Source of the DNA: Diplonema papillatum
Taxonomy: Eukaryota > Euglenozoa > Diplonemea > Diplonemida > Diplonemidae
Length of the DNA stretch: 64,000 nucleotides
Direction: 5' to 3'
NCBI GenBank assembly: GCA_030068145.1
Contig: JAPJBO010000315.1
Location: forward strand, 170,128-234,127
Shown: positions 141-51,369 of the stretch, piece after piece
Layout: the number at the start of each line of letters is the position of its first letter
Position numbering within the stretch: position 1 is the first letter of the stretch
The notes under the pieces: model-generated
Database searches by the model: none
What the model was told of the DNA's origin: nothing
The model's input: only the letters and a program-made list of their open reading frames with translations
Made by a program: the position numbers and the translations under genes

Positions 141-431
141 AAATACTCGACGTAGCTGCTTCGACTCCGAATGGAAGGGGGGAAATATAGAGGTAAGGGG
201 CAAATACAATACAAACACAATCTGATTTGTTCTTCGCTTACACCACCGTGTGTTGCTTTCTCACTCAGGACTTTGACCTGTTGTGTTTGTGTGATTTGTC
301 GTGTAGGGGTAGACCCGCATGACCTCACGTCCGTTCAACACGTGGTTCGGTAGTTACAGCACTTGGGATCCCTTCTGTTCTTTGTCGGGCAGCATCGTCG
401 AGCATTTTCTTTCAAGCTGGCGCTTATGTAA
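141..431 (-). repeat. Full terminal repeat (A2B2) of YR retrotransposon I
   Basis: This 291-bp unit runs from 'aaatactcgacgtagctgc' to 'gcgcttatgtaa' and is immediately followed by a second start of the same unit at 432. It contains both halves that flank the ORFs separately (432-537 and 4768-4979). Solo relatives occur at 8900-9100, 10995-11266 and 34611-34905. Confidence 0.85.
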
Positions 432-537
432 AAATACTCGACGTAGCTGCTTCGACTCCGAATGGAAGGGGGGAAATATAGAGGTAAGGGGCAAATACAA
501 TACAAACACAATCTGATTTGTTCTTCGCTTACACCAT
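432..537 (-). repeat. Half repeat B1 of YR retrotransposon I
   Basis: Matches positions 141-246 of the full repeat and stops after TTTGTTCTTCGCTTACACCA. The same 20-mer begins the other half repeat at 4768, so the split point lies in or next to this short shared sequence, a candidate recombination core. Confidence 0.8.
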
Positions 538-568
538 CCAGGACCCCCAGGGACCACGCAGTGGCTTT

Positions 569-2383
569 TCAAGTAGTCAGATCCGGAGGAGGCGAGAGAT
601 CTTCCTCCTTCGGTAACCACCCTCCAGGCGTCGCGTTCTCTTTCGCCTGGGTACCCCGGGTGTACTCGTCCGCCCTCTGTTCGTGGGTCGGCACCCACGC
701 AGCCGTGAGCTCAAGTCCGTACTCTCGGGCCAGATCGAAAATGCGCGACAGTATTATGTTCGCCGCGTAATTCTTCGAGTGGCCCTTGTTCAGGCAATGA
801 ACCGCCGGTAGATTGTCTACCATCAGCTCTACGGACACTCCACGGTGCGTTCTAACGGCCAGCTCGAGGCCTTTCAACACTGCGAAAAGCTCTTTCAAAA
901 AAATGTGCTTTTCCGCGAAGTGACCAAAGAAAATGCCCTGTGACACCCGTTCGGGCTCACCCTCGAGCAGCGCCGCCCATTCTTTTGAGGAGGCGTCGGA
1001 CCATAGTCGGATCGACTGCCCCCCGCGCGTGCCCACTCGCGTGACCCACCGGTTCTCCCCGATGGTCGCCGTGAGGCTTTCAACTTCGCGGGCTGTCGAC
1101 GCCGGAACGTTCACCGGCACGTCCCATGCCTGCAGACCTCCCACCGACAGTCGTGAGGAGAGTCTCTGCACGAACGAAAGAGCGCACCGGGCGTACGCCA
1201 AGGGAAAACGCGTTGTGTACGCGAACCACACCAGAGCGCCGAACAGCCTGTAGAACGCCCGGGGAGAAACGACTCCGCCCCGGAAAACGGCGAGTTCGGA
1301 AGACCGCAGCAGCTTTTCAACCCAAGCAGTGGCCATACTGTACCGAGGTGGGCTGCTGGCCAGATCGAACCGCAGCCCCAAAAGGTCGAACTGCGTGAGG
1401 GGGATCCCGTACTGGCCTTCGTCGTCGTTGAGGACGCAGTGCACCTCACGACATCGCCGGGCGAAACGTGCGAATTTCTCTTCCGGCCAAAGAATCGCCC
1501 ACGATGATAAAATTGTCAACCCACGGGAGACCGTCAGTCTCCGGCAGGATGACGCGAGAAGCTCTCTGTGCTATCGCCGGAGCCCAGCTCCAGCCCATGC
1601 ACATCGCCCTTAAACGGGCTCTGACGAAACTCCCACGTGGGCCCGCAAGGTTCATGCCGAAATACCCGCGGACGCCCTCATCCAGTTCGAACTGGTAGAA
1701 GTAGCTCTTCGCATCCGCCAGGTAGACGACCGCCGAGCTTAGCACCCGATCGATCACGTCGGGCATGGAGGGCAGGAGCATCGGAGGCGGTCGGGGCATG
1801 ACAGCGTTCAGCTTTCGTCCATCGCACACGAACCTCTCCCCCCCGCTCTTCTTGGGAACCGTGAATGCGGGGAGCACGACTCTCGGATGCTCGTGTGCTA
1901 CCTCCGCGACACCGTACTTCAGCAGGTCCGGAAGGTGGTGTAGCATCCGCCTCGAGGTCCCGCGCGCTATGGCCTCTGAGTGCCAAGAGGAGGCGTCGCG
2001 GACTAGCGCGGACTCGAAGGACTCACGCGACCTGATAACGTCCAACACGCCTCCGAGTAGGCCGTGTGTATCCATGGCAAGGAGCCTGTCGAGATCCATG
2101 AAGGAGGACGTGATGGGCGCTAAATACCCCTCCGAGCTGCGCTGCGCCGGAGGAGCGGCAAGCTCGTTGACGATGAGGTCGCCCCCGTAGGCGACGGTGA
2201 CGAAAGGCGTAAAATCCGACGGCGGGGCATCGCCGATGCCCCCATGGTGCCGGATCGCTTCCAAAAACGCCGGGGGGGGTACATCCTGCGACAAAGCATC
2301 GGGTCCAGGATAGCACTTGGACAGGGGGTTACGAGGAGCTCTCTTCGGCGGCCTGTATGGGAAAACCGGTTCCAAAGGGAGGC
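569..2383 (-). pseudogene. RT-RNase H of YR retrotransposon I, frameshifted
   Basis: The reverse transcriptase frame is open from about 2383 to 1446 and the RNase H frame from 1519 to 569. RT landmarks are FTVPKKSGGERFVCDGRKLN (fingers), YLADAKSYFYQFELDE (motif A), MCMGWSWAPAIAQR (motif B) and WVDNFIIVGD (motif C). Motif C has Asn in place of the second catalytic Asp of the usual DD pair. Just after motif C, near 1500, the sequence changes frame by one base into WPEEKFARFARRC, so one protein cannot be made without a shift. RNase H keeps its four acidic positions: LWSDASS, the Glu of FLKELFAVLKG, MVDNLPAV and the Asp of EQRADEYTRG. The copy is probably inactive for reverse transcription. Confidence 0.8.
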
Positions 2384-3345
2384 TCACAGGAGGGTTGCCG
2401 ACGCGCCTGCCGTCTCCCGGACGAGGGGTACCTCCGCCTCCGGGAGGTAGCGCACAAGGGCATCCTGGGTCGAGTGGCGGGACACTCTCCGGAGCGTGTC
2501 GAGGTCGACGCCCATCCTCAGGAGGCGAAACAGCGCCCCCCGGCGCAGGGAATGCCCCGTCAGAGCCTGGTTGGCCCTCTTCAGCGCCGCCACGACGCGG
2601 CGGAACGTGACGCCCGCGAAAATACGTTGACCCGGGCGCGTGGAGCGGAGGAGGGATCGGAGAGTCTGATCCTGCGGGGGTGGAAGGACCACGCCGGTCA
2701 CCTGTCCCAAACGGAAAGGGTCCGATTTCGAGCCGACCCAGTTCACCGACCAGAAATCGGAGCTCTCGGTCACGTTTCGGGCCTCTCTGGTAAGGACATC
2801 GTCCACCCGGGCTGCCCCCTGCCACGCGAGGGTGATGGCCAGACGCATCACGGGATCTGATTCGAGGCGCACGGCGCGCTCCACATCCTCCTTTGTGGCC
2901 GGAACTGCCTGCTTGGTCGGCCGCAAAGCACCCGCCCTCTTCAGGGACCTGACGAAGTCTCGAACCAGCTGACTCTCGATCGGTCGACCGAGACGCTTCT
3001 CCGCGGATTGTACGTTGACCACGTACTGTATCGCGGTGGACGGAGAGATGGGGTTCAGTTCGCGCGACAGGAGACGCGTCACAAACAGAACGACCGCCGT
3101 CGGAACGTCCAACGGCGTACCGAATCGCGTCTCCCAGTGATGGCGGAACTCTAGGAAGCGCCGGTACACCGAGTGAACGCCGCGTCGCGTCGACAACGCC
3201 AGCGCGTCGCCGATGTACGAGTTGGCCTTGCCAACAAGTCTCTCCCGCTCGCCGTTCGACAGCGGAGGCTCCAACAAAAGCGCCCGACCACCGGATGTCG
3301 CGCGCGGAGGTGGGGGGAAGCGGTCCAGGACGCTCACCGAGACCC
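2384..3345 (-). CDS. Tyrosine recombinase of YR retrotransposon I
   Basis: About 320 residues with the phage-integrase/Crypton-DIRS signature. Arg lies in GAARVDDVL, the HxxR box in TGHSLRRGAL, and His then Tyr in SRHSTQDALVRYL, so all five usual catalytic positions can be assigned. The N-terminal part (NSYIGDALALSTRRGVHSVY onward) fits a SAM-like core-binding domain. No ATG is found near the expected start. The frame opens at the gag stop (3334) and lies -1 relative to gag, with an AAGGGG run eight bases before that stop, so expression by -1 frameshifting is possible. It would cut and rejoin a circular cDNA with the genome. Confidence 0.85.
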
Positions 3346-19358: not shown

Positions 19359-21100
19359 TCAGACTTGGACGGCTGTATGGTGGTCCAATGCGAACCCCCC
19401 AGGGCATGTCTTCACACCTTCTCGGCAGACTCGAAAGGCATCACTACCAACTGTGCCCCTGCGCGAGTACGAGTCAGCGGGCATTCTGTCTGTGGGAAGC
19501 CAAGCCACTAGTGCCCCCAAGGCGAATGAGCGAAAAATAGCAAAGTGTTCTTTCAACATGGCGTTGGCCAAACGAGTCGTCGAGTGTCCCTTTGTCAGAA
19601 CGTGAAATACGGCCATGTTGTCAGTTAGGAAAAGCGGCGACCTGCAACCCAAACTGCGGGCGGTGCGAACGGCACGCAGTGCGGCACGCAGCTCCAGATG
19701 GAAGATACCATCTGTCGTCGACCACCTACCCCAACTGGCACCAGCAGTGGTGCATGTGTTGTAGCACACGCCCCATCCAACGCTGCTAGCATCCGACCAT
19801 AACACACAATCAAAGACCTCCGGAGGCCTCGACCTCGGGGGCATCCAGTCGGGTACACGAAGCCTGCTGAGGAAAACAGCTACATCACTGCGAAAACCTT
19901 GAGGGAGACACTGAGGGGACGACCAGGTTAGTTGTCCCTTTCCAATCTTAGCTGCACGATCTCGCACCCACTCCAACACCTCGGCATAATGACACAACCA
20001 GTGCCCCGTTGCGTAACACGTCCAGACAATACAACCTACTACGTACCATACCTGTCTGACCGAAACCACCGGGGACCGCAACAGCCCTGCTATCGCGTCC
20101 GTGGTGTCAGCTCGCCAAAGGTCAGGCAGGCGAAAGCCGGAGCCTGCAAGGTCCCATTCGATCCCAAGATATTCCAACTGTTGTGTTGGTTGCAAAATAC
20201 TCTTGGCATCGTTAATCTCGGCCCTGACCTGAGCCGACCTTTCAAGAAATTGTGCTGCGTTCGACTGACACTCGATGGCTGTCCTCCCTAAAATGATGAT
20301 ATCGTCGTAGCACGCCGCGCCACAATTTAACAGACCAGGACCCATTATGGTTTCGGTGGACCGCTGTGCCACGTAGGGTGCCCATGACCAGCCCATGGGC
20401 ATTCTGGTCCAGCGATACCAGGTCGACCCCACGCGAAACACAAAAAAGGAGGAATTGTAGGCGTCGAGAGGAAACTGATGGAAGTATCCCCGGAAATCAA
20501 TCTTGATTGCCCATTTAAATCCTGACGAAAGGATGAGGTGGGACAGAGTCAATGGGCTAGGCAACTTGAAGGCGGGCGGACGATGCATGATGTCATTGAC
20601 CGGTCTACCGTCGACGACGAGCCGTCGTACCATGGGGTCCTTCTTAGGCACATCGAAAAGCGACACTACCGCACGCACCGGGTCTGAACGATGTTGCGGA
20701 AGCGCCACGTGCTGGGCAACGCACTGATGGATAAAAGCGGCCGGCATCCGGGTTTTTGGACCGGGAACCGGAGATCGAGAGAGCACTGCCTGTGAAAACG
20801 CGCCGGTCTCTTGCAGCATGTCGATGAAAGATACGTCCCATCCTGAATCTAACGCCATGCGTCTGAGTGCCTTCAAGTCTATTAGACCCGTCGGGAAATC
20901 ATCCAGACGGGCTCCGGGAGCGCGATTGTCAGCAGCCTTTGAAAAGGAGGCGAGGAAAGGTATGAGCTCCGAGTATACGAACCTCCAGAACTCATCTGGG
21001 TATGCACATATACCTTCCCCAAAAAGTATCCTGTACAAGTCAGGGACCCGCGCATGCCTTACTGAAGGGCAGACAGTTGTGCCGGCCTGCGGCCTATGTC
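19359..21100 (-). CDS. Reverse transcriptase-RNase H of YR retrotransposon II
   Basis: RT landmarks in order: VSLFDVPKKDPMVRRLVVDG (fingers), WAIKIDFRGYFHQFPLDAYN (motif A), MPMGWSWAPYVAQR (motif B), ACYDDIIILG (motif C with DD intact), and LQPTQQLEYLGIEWD (thumb start). RNase H follows with LWSDASSVGWG, the Glu of HLELRAALRAV, LFLTDNMAVFH and the Asp of DRMPADSYSRRG, so all four acidic residues are present. The frame lies -1 to the recombinase ORF and overlaps its 3' end. The upstream start is uncertain; open frame continues past 21100. It would make cDNA from the element RNA and degrade the template. Confidence 0.85.
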
Positions 21101-22012
21101 CGCAGGTGCCGTTTGCATCATATACCGGCGTGTCGTGCGGGGATCGGAATGGCGGAGCAACTCGACGAGCTCCTGCCTCGTGGCTCCATCCCTCTCTAGT
21201 ACCTGGGTGGCGCCACGACGGAAACTGTGCAAGACGGCTCCTGGCGGCAAGGCAGCTCGGATCCTCTGAAGGGCGACATCGTACTCTTGTTTCGTCTGAG
21301 CAAATACGGGTCCCGACCGGGTCGCTCGGACGAGTCGAACCAGCCGTGCAGTGAGAAGCCCGGGCGGCATGTACTCCGGAGCATTGTAGGACTTTGCCTG
21401 TTTCTCCTTCATGTACAGTTGCAGCCCGACCATCTGCGGGGAGGCACCCCGGTTGTGGATCTCCTCCACATCTTCGCACGTCAGCACGCGGAGATCGGGA
21501 ACTCGAGCCCGAGTCAACCATACCGTCGCTACCATCGCGGCCTCGCGTGCATGGCCTTTCTGCTCCAGCCTTTCGACTGTCGCTCTCGCCTGAGCCGTAT
21601 CGAGCGGCGTCGCCTGATGGGGTCGAACCATCACCGAAAGCCGCTTCAAGGCCTGCGCCGTCTGCTGGACACGTCTCGTCCTCACCCCGCGTATGCCGTG
21701 GTCCACCAATACCTTCATGAGCCGCGAGAGGTAATTTCGCACGGTCAACGGCTGGGCCGGTCCCAAACGACTCCAAGCAAACCGAACGAGAGACAAATCG
21801 ACGGGGGCGCGCCTCTCTTGCGTCTCCAGGAAACGAGAGAACTGGGCCAGCAGCCGGTCGGCCTCGCCGACATTTCTCGGACCCGTTGCGAACAGATGTG
21901 CGTGTTCGGGCGGGATGCTGCTGGCAATGGCGCGAGCCAGTGCGTGTCCGTCGCGAATCAAGAACAGCTCGTGTTCTAGTCTCTCGCGGGCGCTCTGGTT
22001 TCGCAGAAGCAT
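21059..22012 (-). CDS. Tyrosine recombinase of YR retrotransposon II (317 aa)
   Basis: The ATG at 22012 (MLLRNQSARERLEHELFL) lies 5 nt after the gag stop, in the string TGAGCAGCATG, which would suit termination-reinitiation. Catalytic residues: Arg in LTRARVPDLRVL, the HxxR box in LHSFRRGATQ, His in LLRHSDPRTTRRYM and Tyr in the same string. The length fits the compact DIRS-type recombinase. The gene precedes RT, as in element I. The product would integrate circular cDNA by site-specific strand exchange. Confidence 0.88.
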   Translation of the reverse strand: MLLRNQSARERLEHELFLIRDGHALARAIASSIPPEHAHLFATGPRNVGEADRLLAQFSRFLETQERRAPVDLSLVRFAWSRLGPAQPLTVRNYLSRLMKVLVDHGIRGVRTRRVQQTAQALKRLSVMVRPHQATPLDTAQARATVERLEQKGHAREAAMVATVWLTRARVPDLRVLTCEDVEEIHNRGASPQMVGLQLYMKEKQAKSYNAPEYMPPGLLTARLVRLVRATRSGPVFAQTKQEYDVALQRIRAALPPGAVLHSFRRGATQVLERDGATRQELVELLRHSDPRTTRRYMMQTAPADIGRRPAQLSALQ

Positions 22013-22017
22013 GCTGC

Positions 22018-23277
22018 TCACTTCTGCCGGGCGAACGACTTCTTGCCCTCGCTCCCAGATCTGCTGCCCTCTGAACGGGGGCGAAATCCGGACTGCTTCG
22101 GCCGACGTTCTCGGCCTCCGCCTCCCCGAGACCGACGGCGATACGCATGTGTCCTGGGCGCGGCTGCCTCGTTGATAGCTGCCGCCGCCGCGACCTCTGC
22201 TGCCTGCTTCGCCCGCTTCATGCGCTGTGGCACCACTTCGGGGTCCTCGAGGGCGCCGGCGAACGCATCCGCGGCCTGGTACCCCAGTTTCTCGCGGACC
22301 CTCCAAAACTCCAACTGCTCGGCGATCCTGCTCAACACGGCACCGTCGTCTTCTCCTGACAGGACCATCCTGACGATGTCCGTCAGTTGCCGGTAAGCCG
22401 CTGCCGCAGCGACCTGTAGGGGGGCTCGATTCCCTAGCTCTGTGAGCAAGAGCTGGGAAAAACCCGGCTCGTCGTCCGCAAAAACCGGCCACGACGCGCC
22501 ATCGTGTAAAACAGCTCTGACGGAGCCCGAGTCGAGACGTCTCTTGTCGTTCCTGTCTTCCGGAACATAGGCCTTTGATGGGGGAACGGCGGGCTCTGGC
22601 GCGGCGACTAGCTTCCAAAAACGCTTCAGCTGATGATGCGGGACAGGCTGAAACGTGCTCTGGCCCAAAACGACGAGGGTGACACCCTCCAGTCCGATGT
22701 CGGTTATCACGGCCGTGACCGTACCATCCGTCATCTTTGCTCCAAGCTCCAACCCTTCCATCAGCGTCGGGGCGGGAAACTCCTCCGCCTGCTGTTGAGG
22801 CTCGGTGGACTCGCTTGCCTTGTTCTCCAATGCACCCACCCGGTTCGCAATGCCCGACAACACGCTCAACACCTCTTCCAGCTTCGCTTCGACGGAGCCG
22901 GAGAGGCTAGGGGCCGGCACGACCGGTGTGGCGGGGGCCGTCTGAGACGTCACATTCTTCTTTATCGCCGCCGTCGTGGACGCCGCGTCCTTTTCCATGC
23001 AGGTCGTGACGACTCCCAAAATTGCGGTCGCCGACATCTTCCCGAGTTCAGCGTACGGGACAGCTAAGAGGTCGACGATCACCCCTTTCGCCTGCTCGAC
23101 GGTGTGATGAGAAAACCCACCAAACCAGTCGCGGCAGTTCTTCTCCATCTCGGCGGTGCTGAAATTCCGTCGTGCAGTGCCAGGAGCTGAGCCGAAAACG
23201 GCGGTCCATCTCTGAACTAGCGGTGCAGGAAAATTGAAGTCTGCGCGTTCTCGTGCCGGGAGGGGCGAGCCTTGCAT
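22018..23277 (-). CDS. Gag-like protein of YR retrotransposon II (419 aa)
   Basis: The ATG at 23277 (MQGSPLPARERADFNFP) is 12 bp inside half repeat A1. A coiled-coil stretch (VEAKLEEVLSVLSGIANRVG) lies near the middle and a Gly/Arg/Lys-rich tail (YRRRSRGGGGRERRPKQSG) could bind RNA. The helical block QLTDIVRMVLSGEDDGAVLS corresponds in position to a similar block in element I gag. No zinc knuckle is seen. Assigned as gag from position, size and layout rather than a family signature. Confidence 0.65.
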   Translation of the reverse strand: MQGSPLPARERADFNFPAPLVQRWTAVFGSAPGTARRNFSTAEMEKNCRDWFGGFSHHTVEQAKGVIVDLLAVPYAELGKMSATAILGVVTTCMEKDAASTTAAIKKNVTSQTAPATPVVPAPSLSGSVEAKLEEVLSVLSGIANRVGALENKASESTEPQQQAEEFPAPTLMEGLELGAKMTDGTVTAVITDIGLEGVTLVVLGQSTFQPVPHHQLKRFWKLVAAPEPAVPPSKAYVPEDRNDKRRLDSGSVRAVLHDGASWPVFADDEPGFSQLLLTELGNRAPLQVAAAAAYRQLTDIVRMVLSGEDDGAVLSRIAEQLEFWRVREKLGYQAADAFAGALEDPEVVPQRMKRAKQAAEVAAAAAINEAAAPRTHAYRRRSRGGGGRERRPKQSGFRPRSEGSRSGSEGKKSFARQK

Positions 23278-42761: not shown

Positions 42762-45700
42762 TTGGTGGGGGGGGGGGGGGGGGGTCGTTGTAGAATGGTT
42801 TTAGCTTGAAGGGTATTGGAAAGGTTGAAAAAGGTTTTGGGGGTCACCGTCGGTTTGTGTTTCTATTTTTTTTCTTTTTTTTTTTTTTGGGGGGTAATTA
42901 TTTTTTCGGGGGTTCGCGTAACCCTTCTTTTCCGGAAGATAACGTTATCTTTTCTTTTCTCTCTGGCGCTCTTTTTCTCTCTATCTCTCTCTTTGGCTAG
43001 CAAAGCGACTATTGCGACCGACACCACGACCACACCCGTAATGAATGTGATCAAGGGCCCCCCACGTTCTACATGTTGAGCAGGGGTTGCCATGTAGCCC
43101 GTACCGGTCTAAGCCTTCATTGCAGCTTCCATAAGCACCCCCGTTGGGACGGGTCCGACGGTCCGTTAGTCATCAGCGACATCGGGCGGGAAAAAGTAAA
43201 TAAAAAGAAAGGGGAAAAATGGGGGTGTGGGTGGATAAGCTCGTGGTAGGTTGTTCGGAAATAAGTACAACCTCAAACTACGCCTAGCACAGGGCCAGGC
43301 GGCATATACGTGCCTTCATCCTCTCATGTTAGTGTGCGTTCACTCGTACAGACACTTCGAGTTTTTCCCGTTAGTCAGGGTAAACGGGTGCGGAGTGAAA
43401 CATAGACCAGCCAGCAATCAAGAACCCGATGAGGCTCAAACGACGTGGATCAGAATCTCACACCCGCGAGGTGGCAACGTCTCTCATGCGCGCGGAGTCC
43501 CCTCAGACCTTGGAACCTCTGGCCATCCCTCGTGCACTCGATGGAGCAGTGTTGACATCGCAGCACCGGGGAACCCGTTAACTGCTGTTCAAACAACTGA
43601 CCATGCGGTGTCAGACATTGGGAGTCCGGCAAGGGCGGGCAGGGTGGCGAATTACCAAAGGGGCAGAAGGAGTCAGGTGAGCCTTCCGACTGCCGGCTCA
43701 TCAAATTACCGGCTGAACCTGGGGGTGCAGGCAAGTCGGGTAGTCGATCCTGAGTAGGAAGCACCATGGAGGGTGACGGGGCACGGACAGTCATGTCGTG
43801 GGCATTCCGGGGGATCCGGACAAAGGCCGCGAGGTAAACGTCACCCCACGGAATGTCGTCGACAGAGGTGACGTGCAGGTCGTCGAAGAGGATCCACCCC
43901 GTGTCTTGCGCAACGTACGTGACGTAGTGCCCGCTAGCCGTATCCTCCCCCATGTGCACCACGACGGCTGCGAGGCGTAGCAGATGGTCCGGCGGTCCGA
44001 AGAAGGGGGGCAATTTCACGTCATTCTGGCGCCTGGCACCGTTTCTCGTGTAGATGCCAAACTGCATCAGAACACATTCAGCTGTCAGACGGAGATCCAT
44101 GCTTTCAACAACCGTACCTACAGCCTTGCAGTCGCATACTCTCTCCGGATTTACAAACCCGTGCACGTGGAGAGAATCTTCCAGCTTCCTTCCGCAAGGA
44201 ATTTGCAGACATTGCACTACCTGACTGCTGGAAGAAGTGCGTCCACATGCATTACATCGCACTGAGGTGGTCCAGCCGTTCTCCAAGCATGCTACGAAGA
44301 GTTGGTAGCCCGGGCAGGGGGACCCCGTTTCGTCCGGACCCAGCGTCGCATTGGTCGCGCTGAGTATCGCTACCAGAGCTTCGTGCGCATCGTGCTGCCG
44401 TGCATCGCAGAAGTTTGCGAACATGCTCAGGATGGCTTGGACACCCATTCTCCGACAGTCCCGGCTACGTTGGTCACCACTGTCGCGAGAGCTTGACAGC
44501 ATGGCAAAGTACGCTAGGAAGTCCCCGAGAAATCCACGGCAGTTGAGGAGGTCCTGCGCAAGGCTCCAGTACATCTCTCTGATCGGCTCCACCCGCATCA
44601 GGAGCTGCAGCACCGCACCAAGAAAGCACGTGTTCCCCAGATTCGGGAGGCCGGTGGGGCCAAACAGCGTCGGATCATGCTTCACGGAAGGCGGGCGTGT
44701 ACAAACGACTGACCGGCAGCACGTGGACGGAGGGGCAGCCGTAAGAACCGGTTTGTGGACATTCGAGCGGCGTCGCTTTGAAACCTGTTGTTCGTCCTCT
44801 TCAGCCTTTCGCTTGTGGCCTTTCCGCGTGGACTCACGGGGGGCGGTCGCATCAGTCTGTTGGGTCGGCGCTTCGGTGGACGGTGATCGGGGGGAGCCAT
44901 CTTCAGCTTCTGGGACAGGCTGGGGGCGGCCGTTGTACTTCACGAAGCGTCTTTCAGCCAGAAGGCGCCCGATCGCACGGTCCATCGCGGTCGGTTCTGG
45001 TAGCGACAGAGTGCGTTCCACCTCATGAATGAGCCAGAAGAAATGCGCCCGCACCTTCTCGCAATGCTCGCCAAATTTAGCCTCCGGGTACGTGTCCAGG
45101 AGCCATTTGCGGAATCCACTCTTCAAAACGCTCTTACGGTAACCGCGCCGCATGAGTTTCAAGACCGTGTTGTTCATTTCGGTCTTGAAATCATATATGT
45201 TGTTGGCGATCCTACCGTTGCGAACGAGGGCCCCAATGAGGATGCTCGAACCGAAGTTTGATGGGGCCGTCGACAGGACTGACGTGTACGCGAGGGGGCG
45301 GTATGGGTAGGCTTTCGCCTTGTCCAAGACCGACAGTCGCATGTATCGCCTTCTAGACGCGTCGGAGACTTCGTGTCGTATCCGTATGCCAAGGAAAGTC
45401 GAATCCCCTACGCATGTGTTCGTCTGCTTGTACCTCATGCTGTAGACGGACTCGGGAGGGGGTTTCGTCCCGAAACAGAGCAGGTCATCGATAAAACGGC
45501 GCGTCATGCTGAGGAGTGTAGCCCGTCGGATGTCCCTTTCAGCCGGGGGTCTCATCATGTACCTCTTCTCCTTTGCGTAGCAGAAGAGATTGGCAATGTC
45601 TGGGGAGGCGTTAGCGCCCATTGGGATGCCCAGTATTTGCCGCATGAGGATGCCGTTCACCAGTACGTACGTGTTCGCCAGGCAGAAAGCGAGGAGGGCC

Positions 45701-46071
45701 TTGAGGTCGTGTGCAGAATATGCTGCCTGCTGCGAGCCCAGATCCGTCACTAGCATGAACGCAAAACTACGTTTCTTCTTCTGTGGCCCATGTTGGCTCC
45801 TCGGCCGTACTAGGACCAGCTCATCAACCCGTACGCCGAGCCGTTCGGCCTCCGCTGCAAAGGCTTCGTCGATGGTGCCAGCAATTTCCTCCAGCAGTTC
45901 CTCGAGCCCCAGCTGGTCGTACATGGTCGTAAAATCCCATGTACCAGCGATCAGGCCCGGAGTTAACATGCGGGGGGGGCGGGGCAGGGGGCGCACTAAG
46001 GATTGGGGGGTGCAACGGGCAATGTCAACGTCTGCTAAATTTGAAGAGGGGGGGGGGGGGGTCCCTTGCAA
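42762..46071 (-). mobile_element. Retroelement encoding RT fused to ubiquitin-specific protease, copy 1
   Basis: The ORF (46071-43450) is followed by a 680-bp 3' region ending at a G run (42767-42784). The same 3' region and ORF end recur at 49333-51369, which defines the 3' boundary of the element. RT begins close to motif A with no fingers region upstream. This copy is therefore probably cut at its 5' side, at or near the G/C runs at 46045-46130. Such truncation fits target-primed reverse transcription. No long terminal repeats or target duplication were recognised. Confidence 0.75.
43450..46071 (-). CDS. Fused reverse transcriptase - USP deubiquitinase - zinc finger protein
   Basis: An 873-codon open frame; its first codon is TTG, so the true start is upstream or lost. 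Residues 35-350 are a reverse transcriptase: motif A TWDFTTMYDQL (Asp46), motif B ILGIPMGANASPDIANLF, motif C RRFIDDLLCF (Asp195, Asp196), then a long thumb-like helical part. The pattern resembles Penelope-like RTs and related single-ORF RTs with an IDD box. Residues 400-445 are a basic linker with a possible nuclear signal (SKRRRSNVHK). Residues 470-790 are a USP-type cysteine protease: Cys box LPNLGNTCFLGAVLQ (Cys482), ARQHDAHEAL, a CNAC/CDC zinc-ribbon-like pair, and His box TASGHYVTYV (His715) with LFDDLHV (Asp730/731). Residues 843-866 are a C2HC finger (CQHC..HERRC). All protease residues look intact. Confidence 0.85.
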   Translation of the reverse strand: MQGTPPPPSSNLADVDIARCTPQSLVRPLPRPPRMLTPGLIAGTWDFTTMYDQLGLEELLEEIAGTIDEAFAAEAERLGVRVDELVLVRPRSQHGPQKKKRSFAFMLVTDLGSQQAAYSAHDLKALLAFCLANTYVLVNGILMRQILGIPMGANASPDIANLFCYAKEKRYMMRPPAERDIRRATLLSMTRRFIDDLLCFGTKPPPESVYSMRYKQTNTCVGDSTFLGIRIRHEVSDASRRRYMRLSVLDKAKAYPYRPLAYTSVLSTAPSNFGSSILIGALVRNGRIANNIYDFKTEMNNTVLKLMRRGYRKSVLKSGFRKWLLDTYPEAKFGEHCEKVRAHFFWLIHEVERTLSLPEPTAMDRAIGRLLAERRFVKYNGRPQPVPEAEDGSPRSPSTEAPTQQTDATAPRESTRKGHKRKAEEDEQQVSKRRRSNVHKPVLTAAPPSTCCRSVVCTRPPSVKHDPTLFGPTGLPNLGNTCFLGAVLQLLMRVEPIREMYWSLAQDLLNCRGFLGDFLAYFAMLSSSRDSGDQRSRDCRRMGVQAILSMFANFCDARQHDAHEALVAILSATNATLGPDETGSPCPGYQLFVACLENGWTTSVRCNACGRTSSSSQVVQCLQIPCGRKLEDSLHVHGFVNPERVCDCKAVGTVVESMDLRLTAECVLMQFGIYTRNGARRQNDVKLPPFFGPPDHLLRLAAVVVHMGEDTASGHYVTYVAQDTGWILFDDLHVTSVDDIPWGDVYLAAFVRIPRNAHDMTVRAPSPSMVLPTQDRLPDLPAPPGSAGNLMSRQSEGSPDSFCPFGNSPPCPPLPDSQCLTPHGQLFEQQLTGSPVLRCQHCSIECTRDGQRFQGLRGLRAHERRCHLAGVRF

Positions 46072-49332: not shown

Positions 49333-51369
49333 TGGGGGGGGGTCGTTGTATAATGGTTTAGCTTGAAGGGTGTTGGAAAGGTTGAAAAAGGTTTTGGGGG
49401 TCACCGTCGGTTTGTGTTTTTATTTTTTTCTGTATATTTTTTTTGGGGGGTAATTATTTTTTCGGGGGTTCGCGTAACCCTTCTTTTCCGGAAGATAACG
49501 TTATCTTTTCTTTTCTCTCTGGCGCTCTTTTTCTCTCTATCTCTCTCTTTGGCTAGCAAAGCGACTATTGCGACCGACACCACGACCACACCCGTAATGA
49601 ATGTGATCAAGGGCCCCCCACGTTCTACATGTTGAGCAGGGGTTGCCATGTAGCCCGTACCGGTCTAAGCCTTCATTGCAGCTTCCATAAGCACCCCCGT
49701 TGGGACGGGTCCGACGGTCCGTTAGTCATCAGCGACATCGGGCGGGAAAAAGTAAATAAAAAGAAAGGGGAAAAATGGGGGTGTGGGTGGATAAGCTCGT
49801 GGTAGGTTGTTCGGAAATAAGTACAACCTCAAACTACGCCTAGCACAGGGCCAGGCGGCATATACGTGCCTTCATCCTCTCATGTTAGTGTGCGTTCACT
49901 CGTACAGACACTTCGAGTTTTTCCCGTTAGTCAGGGTAAACGGGTGCGGAGTGAAATATAGACCAGCCAGCAATCAAGAATCCGATGAGGCTCAAACGAC
50001 GTGGATCAGAATCTCACACCCGCGAGGTGGCAACGTCTCTCATGCGCGCGGAGTCCCCTCAGACCTTGGAACGTCTGGCCATCCTTCGTGCATTCGACGG
50101 AGCAGTGTTGACATCGCAGCACCGGGGAACCTGTTAACTGCTGTTCAAACAACTGACCATGCGGTGTCAGACATTGGGAGTCCGGCAAGGGCGGGCAGGG
50201 TGGCGAATTACCAAAGGGGCAGAAGGAGTCAGGTGATCCTTCCGACTGCCGGCTCATCAAATTACCGGCTGAACCTGGGGGTGCAGGCAAGTCGGGTAGC
50301 CGATCCTGAGTGGGAAGCACCATGGAGGGTGACGGGGCACGGACAGTCATGTCGTGGGCATTCCGGGGGATCCGGACAAAGGCCGCGAGGTAAACGTCAC
50401 CCCACGGAATGTCGTCGACAGAGGTGACGTGCAGGTCGTCGAAGAGGATCCACCCCGTGTCTTGCGCAACGTACGTGACGTAGTGCCCGCTAGCCGTATC
50501 CTCCCCCATGTGCACCACGACGGCCGCGAGGCGTAGCAGATGGTCCGGCGGTCCGAAGAAGGGGGGCAGTTTCACGTCATTCTGGCGCCTGGCACCGTTT
50601 CTCGTGTAGATGCCAAACTGCATCAGAACACATTCAGCTGTCAGACGGAGATCCATGCTTTCAACCACCGTACCTACAGCCTTGCAGTCGCATACTCTCT
50701 CCGGATTCACAAACCCGTGCACGTGGAGAGAGTCTTCCAGCTTCCTTCCGCAAGGAATTTGCAAACATTGCATTACCTGACTGCTGGAAGAAGTGCGTCC
50801 ACATGCACTGCATCGTACTGAGCTGGTCCAGCCGTTCTCCAAGCATGTTACGAAGAGTTGGTAGCCCGGGCAGGGGGTCCCCGTTTCGTCCGGACCCAGC
50901 GTCGCACTAGTCGCGCTGAGTATCGCTACCAGAGCTTCGTGCGCATCGTGCTGCCGTGCATCGCAGAAGTTTGCGAACATGCTCAGGATGGCTTGGACAC
51001 CCATTCTCCGACAATCCCGGCTACGCTGGTCACCACTGTCGCGAGAGCTTGACAGCATGGCAAAGTAAGCCAGGAAGTCCCCGAGAAATCCACGGCAGTT
51101 GGGGAGGTCCTGCGCAAGGCTCCAGTACATCTCTCTGATCGGCCCAACCCGTAGCAGGAGCTGCAGCACCGCACCAAAGAAGCACGTGTTCCCCAGATTC
51201 GGGAGGCCGGCGGGGCCAAACAGCGTCGGATCATGCCTCACGGAAGGCGGGTGTGTACAAACGTCTGATCGGTAGCACGTGGATGGAGGGGCAACTGTTA
51301 GAACCGGTTTGTGGACATTCGAGCGGCGTCGCTTTGAAGCCCGTTGTTCGTCCTCTTCAGCCTTTCGCT
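49333..51369 (-). mobile_element. RT-USP retroelement, copy 2 (5' truncated)
   Basis: Matches 42777-44813. Coordinates differ by exactly 6556 at both the stop codon and the break point, so there is no net indel in the 1364-bp coding part; the 3' region has only small indels. Similarity stops at 51369 ('cctttcgct'), where element K copy 2 and a small hairpin begin. The RT domain is absent. The break may be original 5' truncation or later insertion of K. Confidence 0.8.
50006..51369 (-). CDS. USP deubiquitinase and zinc finger, truncated copy
   Basis: Open from the break at 51369 to the stop at 50006. It keeps the basic linker (SKRRRSNVHK), Cys box LPNLGNTCFFGAVLQ, ARQHDAHEALV, zinc-ribbon-like CSAC, His box TASGHYVTYV with LFDDLHV, and the C2HC finger CQHCSVECTKDGQTF..HERRC. 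Differences from copy 1 are scattered substitutions and the frame is undamaged. Without RT it could at most be an orphan protease; no promoter is evident. Confidence 0.7.

Follow-up and report, generated by a model that had tools for sequence, protein, structure and literature searches.

A single uninterrupted frame on the minus strand of contig JAPJBO010000315.1 (C315) of the marine protist Diplonema papillatum joins a reverse transcriptase (RT) to a ubiquitin-specific protease (USP), and the question it raises is whether the two domains form one mobile element or met by chance. The frame lies at 43450..46071 (-) of the 64,000-nucleotide stretch that was analyzed, referred to here as the window, and carries RT motifs, a USP/peptidase C19 domain and a C2HC finger. 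As regards identity and architecture, the sequence is almost certainly a 5'-truncated copy of a young Penelope-like element (PLE) with an N-terminal endonuclease and with the USP in the same polyprotein.

The window frame and the intact element

The frame encodes 873 aa when counted from its TTG start and 878 aa from stop to stop. Within the 878-aa frame, Pfam UCH was matched over residues 478-744 (E 1.2e-21; 77.9 bits, the cut-off being 23.9), and the RT was identified via its relatives; the single frame with RT boxes and a USP, as proposed in the initial annotation, was thereby confirmed. The motifs MGANASPDIANLF and RRFIDDLLCF, the zinc-ribbon pair CNAC/CDC, the C2HC finger and the catalytic residues Cys482, His715 and Asp730/731 (873-aa numbering) were all found in the sequence where they had been placed. 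A search of PDB sequences with the window frame matched USP12, USP46, USP14, USP36 and others, and in the profile search of PDB the best match of the USP was USP12 (3.7e-14). For the C2HC finger pattern, 0.03 occurrences are expected in shuffled sequence.

The open frame is real, but its TTG is not the start of the element. In long genomic copies the alignment to the 878-aa frame started only at residue 43, and since the element sequence starts at approximately 45972, just upstream of RT motif A, the first ~38 residues are flanking DNA. The full-length unit gave two minus-strand blastn matches to the window, at 42764-45972 (96.0%) and 49334-51369 (99.9%); the window therefore holds two 5'-truncated copies of one element. 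Copy 2 is preceded by C8 and has C9 at its 3' end. The features of both copies are as follows.

42764..45972, minus strand: window copy 1, 5'-truncated, with RT core, linker, USP, C2HC finger, 3' untranslated region (UTR) and poly-C end (blastn with the full-length unit, 96.0% over 3,214 bp; 99.2% to locus L035 on contig C17)
45973..46086, minus strand: flanking DNA, in frame by chance upstream of copy 1 and outside the element (full-length units show no match beyond 45972)
45484..45936, minus strand: RT palm motifs, which we take to be A (DFTTMY), B' (GIPMGANASPD) and C (RFIDD), from sequence alignment; fingers and endonuclease are missing in copy 1
43855..44655, minus strand: USP/peptidase C19 domain (Pfam UCH, E 1.2e-21)
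44626..44628, minus strand: catalytic Cys codon (Cys482), from the USP alignment
43927..43929, minus strand: catalytic His codon (His715), from the USP alignment
43879..43884, minus strand: catalytic Asp pair (Asp730/731), from the USP alignment
44128..44256, minus strand: USP zinc-ribbon cysteines, CNAC ... CDC, from the sequence
43474..43557, minus strand: C-terminal C2HC finger, from the pattern search
42764..43452, minus strand: stop codon, 3' UTR and poly-C 3' end (ACAACGA, then a C-run), from the sequence
49334..51369, minus strand: window copy 2, shorter, 5'-truncated, with linker, USP, C2HC finger and 3' UTR, and a C-run at each end (99.9% over 2,036 bp to the full-length unit)
50411..51208, minus strand: USP domain of copy 2 (frame 50006-51241; Pfam UCH 4.6e-22)

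In the 271-Mb D. papillatum assembly, at least 54 stretches matched the window frame and at least 101 matched its USP part. The portion of the intact frame L005 used as query was 100% identical to the D. papillatum protein P0001. This protein of 1,499 aa comprises GIY-YIG at 86-129 (1.3e-4), a CxC motif at 388, RT motifs, UCH at 1100-1365 (1.3e-20) and a C2HC finger at 1465, so that the intact polyprotein reads GIY-YIG endonuclease, CxC, RT, basic/proline-rich linker, USP and C2HC finger. Among 20 loci, 14 copies of family A aligned over all 1,499 residues at 99.67-100%, and long DNA alignments among family-A loci mostly showed 99.3-99.97% identity (97.8% where one runs through a flank). Because its copies are near-identical, family A is young.

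The domain order is that of a PLE with the endonuclease at the N terminus. In P0001, in a second D. papillatum polyprotein, P0003 (23.0 bits), and in the more distant lineage D (26.9 bits), the only GIY-YIG match lay close to the N terminus; the C-terminal position of canonical PLEs was not found in these three. The CxC between endonuclease and RT reads CPC or CEC in lineages A, B, C and D and in the proteins P0008, P0014 and P0011, and CAC in lineage E; it aligned to the CEC of a Pinctada protein without a USP. A search for the hammerhead ribozyme in three loci (L029, L034 and L020) gave none among four matches at E up to 5; these belonged to miRNA families and a plastid UTR model, each scoring under its gathering score. 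The 2.7 kb upstream of the gene in the 7.9-kb unit (L029, gene orientation, 310-3041) contains stop-to-stop frames of at most 207 aa, none of which was taken as a gene; this 5' region is unusually long.

A correction of annotation follows from these results, as P0001 and P0003 carry the name 'putative ubiquitin carboxyl-terminal hydrolase 16' but are retroelement polyproteins; each represents an NCBI cluster, of 10 and 11 members, respectively. Part-length matches to the element were also observed in the NCBI models P0004, P0009 and P0013 (named Ribosomal RNA-processing protein 12, Magnesium/proton exchanger and Dynein intermediate chain 2, respectively), which are likely chimeric annotations or insertions.

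Copy structure and the poly-C target

The 3' end of the copies is fixed, approximately 675 nt beyond the last codon, and the 5' ends are ragged, spread between a point 2.6 kb ahead of the ATG and positions within the gene. At loci L026 and L029, head-to-tail units of ~7.9 kb are joined directly at the poly-C end. At L020, an inverted piece beyond the 3' end stops at base 947 (L029 numbering) and the direct part starts at 948.

Runs of 5-29 C were present at the 3' end in 18 of the 20 loci, L030 and L023 being the exceptions. A C-run of at least 7 was observed within 30 bp at 7 of 16 5' junctions; L026, L029, L033 and L034, which have no simple genomic 5' junction in the stretch, were left out of this count. 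In the controls, such runs occurred in 0.5% and 0.8% of random 30-mers from the two window strands, and in 2.4% within the first 400 bases of the 20 loci joined together, a value that is an overestimate if anything, as some of these sequences contain element ends.

Ragged 5' ends, a fixed poly-C 3' end, tandems and an inverted piece together point to a PLE with a microsatellite target. In the proposed mechanism, the endonuclease would nick the G-rich strand of a poly-C/poly-G tract, and the 3'-G end so formed would pair with the C-rich 3' end of the element RNA and prime reverse transcription at the target. A further array was noted on contig C510 (80987-94337), where three like-oriented copies are spaced 5,726 bp apart; these appear D-like and contain 1,448-aa frames.

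Lineages, selection and kinship

The initial annotation had proposed a retroelement with a USP in its RT polyprotein, and this was borne out by the genome matches and by the recurrence of the RT-USP order in diverged lineages. The USP follows the RT in the five lineages examined in this genome (A-E) and in two relatives from other genomes (P0008 and P0014). RT and USP as invariably separate genes, the outcome named as contrary to the proposal, were not seen.

Subfamily B showed 80% identity over the window frame, and subfamily C, represented by P0003, 65%; copy L037 equals P0003 in 1,484 of 1,485 residues. In the genome scan for UCH, 54 of 149 rows scored 85.3-85.9 bits, as the C copy on contig C981 does, the rows not being individually assigned. 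Lineage D comprises 45 stretches matching P0012, with UCH at 1e-15 and GIY-YIG at 5.9e-6 in copy L039, and no C2HC finger was found in it. Lineage E reaches frames of 2,210 aa, and its copy L040 has UCH at 1.1e-14 followed by two C2HC fingers. P0008 was 46% identical in the RT (at most 43% among 28 scored matches in this genome; UCH 3.4e-15) and P0014 was 34% identical (RT core at most 52% among 150 scored matches in this genome; UCH 1.6e-9). Further lineages beyond A-E were observed among the genome matches, and P0008 contains five C2HC fingers between RT and USP (residues 840-1280) instead of one after the USP.

Cys and His of the active site are conserved in each of the eight USPs aligned (lineages A to E, P0008, P0014 and the window copy). 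Residue conservation was taken from a separate USP alignment, because alignment A1 misplaces the USPs of P0008 and P0014. The USPs of D and E were only 24% and 23% identical to that of the window, respectively. Pfam UCH scores were about 75-86 bits for A and C copies and 55-59 bits for D and E, and the best other matches in the genome reached 206. In pairwise phmmer searches, the USP of P0014 matched no other element USP and that of P0008 matched only that of D.

The ratio of nonsynonymous to synonymous substitution rates (dN/dS) was compared between domains. For the USP it was 0.237, 0.157 and 0.193 in the pairs A-B, A-C and B-C, respectively, and for the RT 0.069, 0.084 and 0.098. The linker gave 0.358 (A-B) and 0.609 (A-C), the B-C value not being computable. 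The A-C and B-C ratios are rough because whole-gene dS exceeds 1, and A-B (dS 0.55) is the sound comparison. In the comparison of A with the window copy, dN/dS was 0.22 for the USP, 0.172 for the RT and 0.689 for the linker. L036 rows past a frame break, and L035 rows, whose 5' part is non-homologous and contains stops, were excluded. Judged from these ratios, the USP is under purifying selection and is less tightly held than the RT. As the USP is kept in several diverged branches, it probably aids copying of the element, and there are good grounds to regard it as a selected working part.

Kinship was examined with five proteins without a UCH match, P0017, P0018, P0021, P0022 (Pinctada imbricata) and P0023, which form profile A7. 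When compared by hhalign with the USP-bearing profile A6, a probability of 100 was obtained (E 6.9e-60, 588 columns); the aligned region covers CxC and RT, with the endonuclease outside it. An N-terminal Pfam GIY-YIG was present in four of the five A7 proteins, all but P0021. P0018 passed RVT_1 with 29.7 bits against a cut-off of 29.6, and both P0018 and P0022 matched RT models weakly. Against PDB, the A7 profile gave weak matches to retron-type RTs (E 0.66). The matches of another RT profile, A2, to PDB (huntingtin and others) were rejected as chance.

In the tree built from 16 RT rows, the seven with a USP, together with P0011, P0016 and P0020, stood on one side of a branch with 96/98 support, and six USP-less rows on the opposite side; P0015, P0016, P0020 and P0023 have long branches and unsure placement. 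The USP label requires four changes on this tree, three of them forced by well-supported branches, and no bootstrap tree required only one. As many as 75 of 500 label shuffles did as well as the observed tree.

Several observations weigh against the element as described, its working protease or the common origin of its carriers. The profile search proposed in the initial annotation for both domains succeeded for UCH, but Pfam did not recognize the RT of the window frame at E up to 1, and the RT of P0001 had no Pfam match either. The GIY-YIG score of P0001, 22.6 bits, is exactly the curated cut-off of 22.6; no GIY-YIG was matched by Pfam in P0008 and P0014, whose gene models begin further downstream, and the lineage E sequence covers the RT/USP part rather than the start of the frame. 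The third catalytic residue is Asn for Asp in E and apparently also in P0008, and the dN/dS of the finger between A and the window copy was 1.0, on 1 synonymous and 3 other changes. Two of 42 rows (C4:33450-36887 and C1875:20366-23803) carry an in-frame deletion of the USP with the rest open, yielding 1,239-aa frames, and three of the ten rows of the USP-side clade (P0011, P0016 and P0020) have no visible USP, which was either lost or is missing from incomplete models.

The two USP-deleted copies may represent one duplicated locus or a USP-less variant moving in trans; unless a single locus was duplicated, the element may be able to do without its USP in cis. The protein cluster matching them, P0002, has 7 member sequences. 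A single capture is not proven, because the four label changes on the RT tree call for losses or incomplete models. It is possible, and proposed here with reserve, that a separate old clade of N-terminal-endonuclease PLEs, numerous in Diplonema and found in other genomes too, captured the USP once, before the lineages split, and kept it as a core part of transposition. If so, deubiquitination would be a built-in step of retrotransposition.

Role of the protease and known systems

Because the USP domain travels in cis, its most likely substrate is the protein-RNA complex of the element itself. Attached to the RT in cis, the USP would trim ubiquitin from this complex, which would then survive the proteasome until integration. 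Such protection is the most probable of the roles considered and is put forward tentatively. Next, as the main rival though somewhat unlikely, comes a role at the target, where the USP would deubiquitinate histones or stalled-fork and repair proteins at poly-G/poly-C, opening the site or shaping the repair of the nick. Insertions strongly favor C-runs, at which factors of replication and repair would be likely to gather, and the C2HC finger adjoining the USP could bind nucleic acid. The best PDB profile matches are moreover USP12/USP46, which are related to deubiquitinases acting on repair factors; that ranking, however, separates USPs poorly. N-terminal-endonuclease PLEs without a UCH match exist too.

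A USP captured earlier and now unneeded, with copies spreading via endonuclease and RT, would agree with the two USP-deleted copies and with a USP dN/dS about 2-3.4 times that of the RT. This ratio is nevertheless well below 1 and below that of the linker, and Cys and His persist in all eight aligned sequences at RT identities down to 34%, which makes an idle passenger quite unlikely. Even less probable is a protease that matures the polyprotein or a host ubiquitin fusion, which is suggested by analogy with other proteases inside polyproteins. A USP needs a ubiquitin fold to cut, and Pfam detected no ubiquitin in P0001, P0003 and P0008 (E up to 10) or in part of the D frame (E up to 1). The window copy alone, truncated and with a frame starting in flanking DNA, would allow an RT fragment to have landed by chance next to or in a host USP gene. 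This option was rejected, its probability being negligible, because the RT-USP order recurs, under purifying selection, in dozens of copies at different sites, in the five lineages A-E and in two other genomes (P0008 and P0014). Taken as a whole, a PLE with a USP-containing polyprotein, priming at poly-C targets and a USP that would trim its own complex is very probably the best explanation.

Naiad and Chlamys, in the account of Craig et al. 2021 (MBE), are reportedly PLEs with an N-terminal endonuclease, said to be marked by N-terminal GIY-YIG, CxC, a PLE RT, tandem and inverted insertions, 5' truncation, a microsatellite bias and the lack of a canonical hammerhead. The Diplonema element resembles them in its N-terminal GIY-YIG, CxC, PLE-type RT, tandem and inverted insertions and microsatellite bias, and in that no hammerhead was found. 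It differs in the USP and C2HC finger after the RT, the poly-C target and the euglenozoan host. Its RT clade is separated by the 96/98 branch from the Pinctada protein and five further USP-less rows, whereas Naiad RTs reportedly group with metazoan elements. The Naiad endonuclease reportedly carries a CCHH motif, which was not found in P0001, where one Cys was read by eye in residues 86-180.

With the canonical PLEs Penelope/Poseidon, Neptune and Nematis, a group for which PMC11167929 reports tandem copies and proposes a target-primed mechanism, the element shares RT and GIY-YIG in one open reading frame and tandem copies. Their endonuclease, in contrast, is C-terminal, and the element described in PMC11167929 has a hammerhead ribozyme. 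Fusion of a mobile element to a ubiquitin or SUMO protease has precedents in PMC2836005, namely Ginger1 and other DNA transposons with OTU or Ulp1 and, as a C19 case, a Trichomonas protein with transposase_11 and peptidase C19. Those are DNA transposons with transposases, however, and the Ginger1 proteases are OTU or Ulp1. With cellular USP12, USP46 and USP36 the element USP shares the family profile, the Cys/His/Asp boxes and the zinc ribbon, but it is divergent by its Pfam UCH score.

The D. papillatum genome paper (PMC10161547) lists retrovirus-related polyproteins, LINE-1, SLACS, R2, jockey and DNA transposons, and by word counts the terms Penelope and ubiquitin are absent from its main text. 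No description of a USP in a PLE was recognized in the literature searched, whose partial coverage stopped short of Craig et al. 2021. This suggests that, next to the known N-terminal-endonuclease PLEs and DNA transposons with ubiquitin-type proteases, a USP within a PLE polyprotein is apparently new. That PLE lineages encode a deubiquitinase of their own suggests that ubiquitin acts on them as a barrier or as a switch. The catalytic Cys offers a clean handle for testing the part of ubiquitin, and the host is called genetically tractable in the abstract of PMC8611851.

PADLOC found nothing, and an IMG/VR scan matched 28 stretches with no relative among them. A different retroelement was also observed in the window, at 19359-22148 (-), where a 929-aa frame matched RVT_1 (4.8e-14) and, below threshold, the RNase H-like RVT_3.

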